Positions 31,228 through 32,417 of a stretch of 64,000 nt of DNA are shown here, in pieces; position 1 is the first letter of the stretch, and the number at the start of each line of letters is the position of its first letter. A model generated the notes under the pieces. That model had not been told where the DNA came from and made no database searches. It worked only from the letters and a program-made list of their open reading frames with translations. Source of the stretch: Magnetovibrio sp. PR-2 (GTDB taxonomy: Bacteria; Pseudomonadota; Alphaproteobacteria; Rhodospirillales; Magnetovibrionaceae); the NCBI RefSeq assembly GCF_036689815.1, contig NZ_JBAHUR010000011.1, positions 1 through 64,000 of the forward strand. The letters run 5' to 3'. The translations under genes were made by a program, and so were the position numbers.

Positions 31228-31688
31228 TGGCTAAAGACATCGTTGAAATTTTTACGGACGGAGCGTGCTCCGGCAACCCCGGCCCCGGGGGCTGGGGCGT
31301 GGTCATGCGTTGGAACGATCACGAAAAAGAACTGTCCGATTTCGAAGCTGAGACCACCAACAACCGCATGGAACTGATGGCCGCCATTCGCGGGCTCGAA
31401 CAGCTCAAACGCGACGTCGGCAAAGTGCGTCTCACCACCGACAGCACCTACGTGAAAGACGGCATCACCAAATGGATCTTCGGCTGGAAGAAAAACGGCT
31501 GGAAGACGGCAGCGAAGAAGCCCGTCAAAAACAAAGACCTGTGGATGCGGCTAGACGAAGCCCTGAAGGGCAAAGACGTCGAGTGGGACTGGGTCAAAGG
31601 CCACGCCGGACATCCGGAAAACGAACGCTGCGACGAACTGGCGCGGCTTGCGATTAAGCAGTACAGGGATGCTTATAGCCAAGACTGA
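31227..31688 (+). CDS. rnhA: Ribonuclease HI
   Basis: 153 residues. Catalytic acids are in [34 protein letters not shown] and the C-terminal [16 protein letters not shown]. It degrades the RNA strand of RNA-DNA hybrids. The start overlaps the thrB stop by one base. The last codons and the stop (31686-31688) lie inside the left 32 bp arm of the inverted-repeat element that follows. Confidence 0.96.
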
Positions 31689-31943
31689 ATAGTGATTAGG
31701 TTGATGCCTTTGATGGAGGCGCTCTTTCGTTTTGGCACGGTGCATTCCGCCGCGCGATGTGGTTCATCGGGCAAGGGATGAGACATAGCCAAAACGAAAG
31801 AGCGCCCCACCGAAGGCCGCCTTTCTTTGCCCCGTGGCTTCGTTGATACACTTGGATGATGAACCACATCAGCCTGCGTGTCTCGCCTCGCCACAAGACA
31901 AAGAAAGGCGGTCAAAGGCGTCAACCTAATCACTATTCAGTCT
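31682..31943. repeat. Compound inverted-repeat element with complementary hairpin loops
   Basis: Terminal arms of 32 bases at 31682-31713 and 31912-31943 are inverted copies with one difference, which is a U.G pair in plus-strand RNA. Inside are two hairpins. The first has 19 bp perfect arms (31718-31736 and 31788-31806). The second has 13 bp perfect arms (31817-31829 and 31899-31911). The loop of the first holds GATGTGGTTCATC (31756-31768) and the loop of the second holds its exact complement (31858-31870). The two halves look like diverged inverted copies of one hairpin of about 90 bases. The arms cover the 3' ends of rnhA and the convergent peroxiredoxin gene. No protein-coding gene is credible inside. 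Confidence 0.9.
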
Positions 31944-32417
31944 AGACAACTGAACCGCTGCGCTGGAGATTTCGAACTGTTTCGGCTCTTCGCGGTCTAG
32001 GCTTTGCACCACGCCGTCTTTGACGATCATGGCGTAGCGGTCCGAGCGCACGCCCATGCCGCCGCCGGTCAAATCCAGTTCCAGGCCTAGCTTTTTCGTC
32101 AGTTCTGCAGAGCCGTCTGCAATCATGCGCACTTTGCCATCGACATTTTGGTGTTGGCCCCAGGCGGCCATGACGAAGGCATCGTTGACGGACAAGCAGA
32201 CGATGTCGTCCACGCCTTTGGCTTTGAGTTGCTCGGACAGCTGAATATAGCCCGGCAGGTGTTGGGCAGAGCACGTCGGTGTATACGCGCCCGGCAAAGC
32301 GAACATCACAACGGTTTTCCCGCCAAACAAATCATCGGTAGAAACCGGTTCGGGGCCGTCGGGGCCCATTTCGAAAACGGTGGCTGTGGGGATTTTGTCG
32401 CCGGGTTGGATGCTCAT
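31926..32417 (-). CDS. Peroxiredoxin, Prx5 type
   Basis: 163 residues from MSIQPGDKIPTATVF (AAGGA eight bases upstream; a start at 32435 is possible). The peroxidatic Cys is in PGAYTPTCSAQHLPGY near residue 50. This PxxxTxxC block, with the later GVRSDRYAMIVKDG, is typical of Prx5/type II peroxiredoxins that reduce H2O2 and alkyl peroxides, often with glutaredoxin. The final codons (SRLNSD and stop) fall in the right arm of the inverted-repeat element, so the C-terminus may differ from relatives. Confidence 0.92.
   Translation of the reverse strand: MSIQPGDKIPTATVFEMGPDGPEPVSTDDLFGGKTVVMFALPGAYTPTCSAQHLPGYIQLSEQLKAKGVDDIVCLSVNDAFVMAAWGQHQNVDGKVRMIADGSAELTKKLGLELDLTGGGMGVRSDRYAMIVKDGVVQSLDREEPKQFEISSAAVQLSRLNSD

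Follow-up and report, generated by a model that had tools for sequence, protein, structure and literature searches.

The 64,000-nucleotide stretch of the Magnetovibrio sp. PR-2 genome analysed here (the window) raises the question of what a compound palindrome of about 260 bp, itself enclosing two hairpins, is doing at the point where two genes converge. The genes are rnhA (RNase H, PF00075; 31227–31688, plus strand, start codon assigned by eye) and a peroxiredoxin gene (Redoxin, PF08534; 31926–32435, minus strand); they are convergent, as the original prediction stated, and the stop codon of each falls within the palindrome. That prediction, made from the sequence letters, had offered a non-autonomous mobile element, a two-way terminator and a structured RNA controlling both mRNAs as possible explanations. 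The analysis described below indicates that the palindrome is very probably a non-autonomous MITE-like transposable element of ~260 bp, with a putative mobiliser of the IS5 type and with hairpins that may be recognised as a folded single strand.

The element proper occupies positions 31683–31942 and is flanked by AA on the left (31681–31682) and by TA on the right (31943–31944), neither dinucleotide being assigned to a strand; the AA stands where the family has TA, and is read as a decayed TA. The left end arm, or terminal inverted repeat (31683–31714, plus strand), carries the rnhA stop codon TGA at 31686–31688, and the right end arm (31912–31942, minus strand) carries the peroxiredoxin stop codon TAG at 31926–31928 on the minus strand. 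Hairpin 1 (HP1; 31718–31806, plus strand) has a tip motif in the forward sense and the apical motif GATGTGGTTCATC; it is followed by the three-way-junction segment CCACCGAAGGCCG (31807–31819, plus strand), by hairpin 2 (HP2; 31817–31911, minus strand), a diverged inverted copy of HP1 with the apical motif GATGAACCACATC, and by the foot CGGTCAAA (31909–31916, plus strand), partially paired with TTTGA of the left arm. The base pairing described in the prediction was recovered: the 32-nt arms 31682–31713 and 31912–31943 are 97% complementary, the sole change being a U.G pair in the plus-strand fold, the HP1 arms (31718–31759 and 31765–31806) contain a perfect stem of 19 bp, the HP2 arms (31817–31838 and 31890–31911) contain 13 perfect pairs, and the 13-base apical motifs of the two loops are exact reverse complements. 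The suggestion that the two halves are diverged inverted copies of one hairpin also holds, with a 67% match between the element and its own opposite strand and with tip senses that are opposite in most of 143 copies.

The predicted RNA folds are very stable, with minimum free energies of −158.2 and −160.2 kcal/mol for the two strands compared to about −80 ± 5 kcal/mol for shuffled sequences (z about −16; none of 200 shuffles folded equally well). Inspection by eye revealed no T-run of an intrinsic terminator after either arm, the sequence after the right arm being TCTAGACAAC. All Rfam matches of the window were far below the gathering cut-offs, and 20 relatives gave no matches; every open reading frame of 60 aa or longer that overlaps the window copy is antisense (64, 66 and 86 aa).

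Joining the window flanks with a single TA yields a peroxiredoxin ending in ...AAVQLSRL* and an RNase H ending in ...YRDAYSLDN*, so the present ends, SRLNSD* and SQD*, respectively, are partly derived from the element, which supplies the last codons and the stop of rnhA. The peroxiredoxin ends in QLSKL* in all four other members of the genus that hold the gene pair, and the element is absent there; the fifth congener, G001, gave only a weaker homologue. The two genes stand together in 12 relatives from the family with neither the element nor a match of the covariance model R1 (see below) between them, the intergenic gap being 30–59 nt in four of these genomes and 186–1164 nt, filled with other sequence, in the remaining eight. 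An empty site was found by comparing two genomes of one genus, where G056 has CTAG at the place filled in G071, the flanks being 95% and 89% identical; the filled site reads CTA-element-TAC, the last base departing from CTAG. A similar attempt at a second locus gave no empty site, the flanks lying on separate contigs in G056 and G094. These comparisons show that the window element was inserted at a CTAG-type site where the 3' ends of rnhA and the peroxiredoxin gene overlap.

The search of the host and its relatives, which the original prediction had proposed as a check, revealed multiple copies in addition to the empty sites. The genome of Magnetovibrio sp. PR-2 itself contains three copies; the second is 88% identical to that of the window, with outermost arms that differ yet are again complementary, and the third is diverged. 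A strict sequence pattern matched 11 of 297 genomes of the order, own genome included, with no match of the reversed control, and at least 118 stretches in a species-level genome collection; the matches listed include Roseibium marinum DSM 17023 and many MAGs labelled Rhodospirillales, Hyphomicrobiales and Kiloniellales. The covariance model R1, built from 41 copies, matched 34 of 289 sampled genomes of the class and 6 of 18 genomes of the window's family, own genome included in both counts. One 5.1-Mb MAG contains ~124 arm matches per strand, only part of which are shown as full copies. Many genomes carrying the family are MAGs, and some contigs start inside or near copies (C2, C5, C14 and C50 of G071; C57 and C169 of G056), so draft assemblies may undercount the element. 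The strict pattern undercounts the family as well, since a diverged member from the window's genus (L012, 1340–1605; G001:C121) has changed junction letters and retained pairing. Short derivatives are represented by arm-only palindromes of ~44 bp, devoid of hairpins, at L207 (2406–2449), L208, L215 and L216. The blastn searches found no match for the window copy in plasmids and phages and none for two relatives in plasmids, and the strict pattern had no match among viral contigs. In total, 100 elements were kept, and 42 pattern matches were set aside due to contig edges or weak outer arms, some of them maybe arising by chance.

Pairing across copies was analysed using 46 representatives with less than 88% identity, from which L014 and L125 (inverted hairpin) and L059, L087 and L105 (odd ends) were removed, leaving 41 copies. 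The compensated pairing noted in the prediction was clearly borne out by covariation analysis, with double changes at 72 of 87 consensus pairs and none of 500 shuffles reaching any of the measures. Paired cells constitute 94.6%, compared to 70.2% after shuffling and 34–44% with partners slid, the slide control favouring the consensus structure because the latter was derived from the same 41 sequences. The plan is constant in these copies, which are 257–269 bp long, and includes 31 outer pairs (96.1% of cells paired) and two hairpins; among the 100 elements kept, HP1 measures 93–97 nt in nearly all; each of the twelve consecutive arm columns 8–19 shows all four Watson–Crick types. The segments CCACCGAAGGCCG and CGGTCAAA are identical throughout this first set because both constituted the search pattern; TTTGATGG and letters within the hairpin tips, located outside the pattern, are also strongly kept. 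A fixed core sequence was rejected by means of 38 members found with the model (18 of 19 and 20 of 20 loci, L365 being unmatched; the third own-genome copy and several copies from same genomes are among them): these are 263–286 bp long, and 31 of the 38 differ at four or more of the 13 junction letters, with length and pairing retained. The general feature of the family is its architecture, not its letters, namely, end arms of about 31–34 bp around two head-to-head hairpins on a three-way junction. Among 143 copies, the tip of HP1 is forward in 127, reverse in 2 and unclear in 14, and that of HP2 is reverse in 131, forward in 1 and unclear in 11; the copies with one tip inverted (HP1 in L014 and L254, HP2 in L125) are pointing to occasional hairpin inversion, and L145 contains a collapsed hairpin.

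Both ends could be placed in 90 of the 100 copies, 89 of which were tabulated as 70 GAG-type and 19 TACC-ended copies. Of the 70 GAG-type copies, 50 are flanked by TA at both ends, and 43 of the 70 also have Y before and R after it (YTAR). Left–right matching of their 4-mer flanks shows no excess over shuffled flanks (26 compared to 23.6 ± 2.1) because the letters are nearly constant, and the duplication at these ends is deduced from the near-constant TA and the empty sites. In G298, TA flanks both sides of 14 of 15 copies (30 rows, each copy being read on both strands; many regions reached contig ends or did not fit). The TACC...GGTA copies have identical TNA triplets on the two sides in 11 of 19 cases compared to 5.8 ± 1.9 with shuffled partners, this being the best of 16 offsets. 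Five of the six full copies of Roseibium marinum among the matches listed, all with near-identical end arms, are bordered by identical triplets (TAA, TTA, TAA, TAA and TCA), the middle base being A, T or C; two of these loci, L078 and L085, are also within the 19. TNA duplication marks other groups of the IS5 family. The insertion sequence IS711 of Brucella duplicates the TA of YTAR, according to its description in PMC2266754. The dispersed copies, target duplications and empty sites agree with the mobile element of the original prediction, and we infer from these sequences that movement is of the MITE type and transposase-driven.

A limited search using PF01609, inverted repeats and arm patterns found no autonomous element with matching ends, so the transposase remains a putative one. 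PF01609 is present in 9 of 10 genomes searched; the inverted-repeat search covered the surroundings of 24 loci, several of them ending at contig ends, and the arm-pattern search had matches listed for G056, G071, G057, G094, G037 and G297–G300. Twenty single-arm sites inspected proved to be solo arms or truncated copies, with no long element. CTAG-bordered elements of 850–864 bp are present at L243, L245, L250 and L251, with ends not matching those of the family, and only that of L245 is named (IS5 family). The ends differ widely between lineages and the borders are of two kinds, so no single transposase could act on every copy. Inverted-repeat-replacing transposition was rejected as a mode of movement, since IS1272, as presented in PMC5678879, moves without duplications and the family has them. 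The insertion sequences located at copies include the IS5-family one of L245 (about 1069–1932), which adjoins a CTAG boundary of an element copy, and an IS701-family one at a CTAG within hairpin 2 in L254 (G298:C209, about 669–2519), with inverted partial element copies, both end arms included, on each side. A separate repeat of ~80–140 bp, situated outside the element (L049, about 847–989), is found dozens of times across G094, G056 and G071.

The position at gene ends is not confined to the window. Removal of the element restores a long open frame across the site in 22 of 65 cases; for positions drawn at random within these loci, the corresponding count is 984 of 1172. TAG is found at the junction in 94 of 140 flanks, and 31 of these 94 terminate an open frame of 100 codons or more, compared to 219 of the 1241 remaining YTAG sites of these loci, all of these being frames rather than confirmed genes. 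An element with TAG...CTA termini entering a YTAG stop can re-create the stop codon, which suggests why elements settle at gene ends. The proposed mechanism includes an IS5-type cut-and-paste transposase that would act on the end arms in their paired state and thereby move mostly copies whose arms match; insertion at gene ends would be cheap due to the re-created stop, and a factor would recognise the hairpin unit, folded from single-stranded RNA or ssDNA, on either strand.

Evidence for the latter step comes from the polarity of mismatches, counted at pairs predicted on both strands with at least 70% Watson–Crick pairing. The ratio of G.T to A.C mismatches is 20:19 in the outer arms, 41:13 in HP1 and 15:42 in HP2; HP2 being the inverted homologue of HP1, the ratio in the hairpin sense is 83:28. 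Counting each cluster once (14 clusters, 75% identity) gives 72:23, with 11 clusters positive and none negative (bootstrap 0.66–0.83). A replicate conducted by another method on the 38 further elements resulted in 23:23 for the outer arms and 54:20 for the hairpins, 20 elements being for and 4 against; the orientation was taken from the better strand of the model, which introduces slight circularity, and the tip motif agreed with it, often narrowly, in 36 (HP1) and 37 (HP2) of the 38 copies. A strand-specific whole RNA was rejected: the first count of 245 G.T against 156 A.C owed its excess to a pair list taken from a G.U-favouring fold, restricting the count to pairs predicted on both strands evens out the totals (76:74) and leaves the split between the hairpins as the sole asymmetry. 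The outer arms seem to be kept matched as DNA ends, plausibly since only matched copies jump, and each hairpin, to judge by its mismatch polarity, looks selected as a folded single strand with a sense. With one sense unit per strand, the two hairpins together are symmetric between the strands, and the element is not required to function as a single closed RNA.

The closed, pseudoknotted RNA with kissing loops envisaged in the prediction is not supported. The hairpin polarities are opposite, and, with loops coarsely assigned in the 41 copies, the mean longest loop–loop run is 2.12 compared to 2.13 for shuffled partners; a run of at least four was found in 1 of 41 copies, compared to 2.3 expected, the coarse extraction having mis-assigned the HP1 loop of the window itself. 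The complementarity of the loops is explicable by inverted duplication alone.

The stable fold on both strands, the massive covariation and the frequent placement at gene 3' ends could also be features of a conserved structured RNA, a regulator or a two-way 3'-end signal forming one Y-shaped molecule on the two convergent mRNAs. Such an RNA is very unlikely, however, as the site is not conserved, the gene pair occurring in 12 relatives without the element, and as a same-strand G.U preference would be expected in both hairpins, where HP1 and HP2 show opposite ones; moreover, loop pairing does not exceed that of shuffled partners, no Rfam match is above the cut-off, and a T-run is absent at either arm. 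It is likewise highly improbable that the fold is a mere by-product, with template-switch (quasipalindrome) correction maintaining an ancient inverted duplication in perfect form and no selection for the structure or for a hairpin function. Palindromes can self-correct, the inversion of HP1 or HP2 in 3 of 143 copies and the collapse in L145 indicate that hairpin rearrangement happens, and the junction letters of model-found members drifted while the pairing stayed. Nevertheless, one-sided arm changes persist within the same genome, with 4–5 arm mismatches in L082, L136 and L302; correction is therefore not fast, and fast self-correction of the arms was rejected. In addition, pure DNA correction predicts equal numbers of G.T and A.C mismatches in the hairpins, where 83:28 and 54:20 were seen, the arms being balanced.

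Another possibility, also an unlikely one, is that mobility is set by the folded hairpins through ssDNA or RNA recognition, and that the arms matter only as paired and not by sequence. The letters of the arms are almost completely replaced among copies, the ends of members found with the model are quite different (e.g., TAGTGTGG, TAGCCCGC and GTCACCTG), the hairpins are polar and the limited searches found no matching autonomous insertion sequence; at the same time, the TA and TNA borders and the similarity of arms within a genome are an ordinary outcome of a DDE transposase, the partner searches were limited in extent, and the letters of the hairpins and junction drift too, which means that no fixed sequence signal resides in the core. 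The related conclusion that the family moves or is maintained through recognition of its hairpin in a folded single-stranded form, each DNA strand carrying one sense unit and the arms being only complementary, is quite doubtful. If true, arm sequence would be free to drift, and one architecture could have many ends and two target borders; such a mobile element would owe its identity to its fold and polarity and not to the sequence of its termini.

The MITE-like element with a putative IS5-type mobiliser acting on its paired ends is the preferred reading. With it, the alphaproteobacteria gain a repeat family that is widespread (present in 34 of 289 genomes sampled from the class) and sometimes reaches a high copy number. 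With its balanced ends and oppositely skewed hairpins, the family represents a natural test of DNA-level and single-strand-level constraint in one element, and Roseibium marinum DSM 17023 would be a tractable place to look for a hairpin-reading factor, if there is one. A full-text literature search, which reached few subscription papers, recognised no published description of the family.

By the definition given in PMC3733652, the family is MITE-like: its members fall within 70–300 bp and have no coding capacity, possess terminal inverted repeats (about 15–30 bp in that definition) and are accompanied by target-site duplications. RUP, NEMIS/Correia and ERIC, as characterised in PMC3733652 and PMC2229807, are likewise small, non-coding and end-paired, with TA termini and target duplications, and are also mostly intergenic, with a very stable RNA fold and a high copy number. 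According to the account in PMC2229807, the repeats other than CIR form a stem-loop by pairing of the 5' and 3' ends and have no arms; unlike them, the family has paired ends surrounding two long hairpins that meet at a three-way junction. CIR, known from Caulobacter, Brucella and other alphaproteobacteria, is likewise intergenic, with two hairpin arms and TA termini, but is described in the same source as ~110 bp long, consisting of arms and a linker with no end pairing and having a conserved GANTC at the terminal loop, whereas the elements of the family are about 257–286 bp long and their ends are paired. GANTC is below expectation in the family (21 compared to 38.1 and 7 compared to 34.8 expected); the window copy has no such site, and none lies at a hairpin tip in any of 79 copies; identity with CIR was rejected, as neither the GANTC loop nor unpaired ends are found. 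The family combines end pairing and arms, and the repeats described in the 2007 review (PMC2229807) have one or the other.

The hairpins of the family, at about 95 nt, lie outside the 20–40 bp range of REP units, including those of BIME and REPIN, and are placed inside end arms with TA or TNA borders. A REPIN contains two hairpin units in inverted orientation, REP hairpins show a single-strand polarity like that of the family, and such units are associated with RAYT (Y1) transposases. The family shares the arrangement of two inverted hairpin units with REPIN and also with REP doublets and BIME, the latter two as presented in PMC2817692 and PMC3733652. The Bru-RS1 and Bru-RS2 repeats of Brucella, likened here by description, are also alphaproteobacterial palindromic repeats and constitute, according to PMC2266754, a preferred target of IS711, the TA duplication of which the main end class of the family appears to share.
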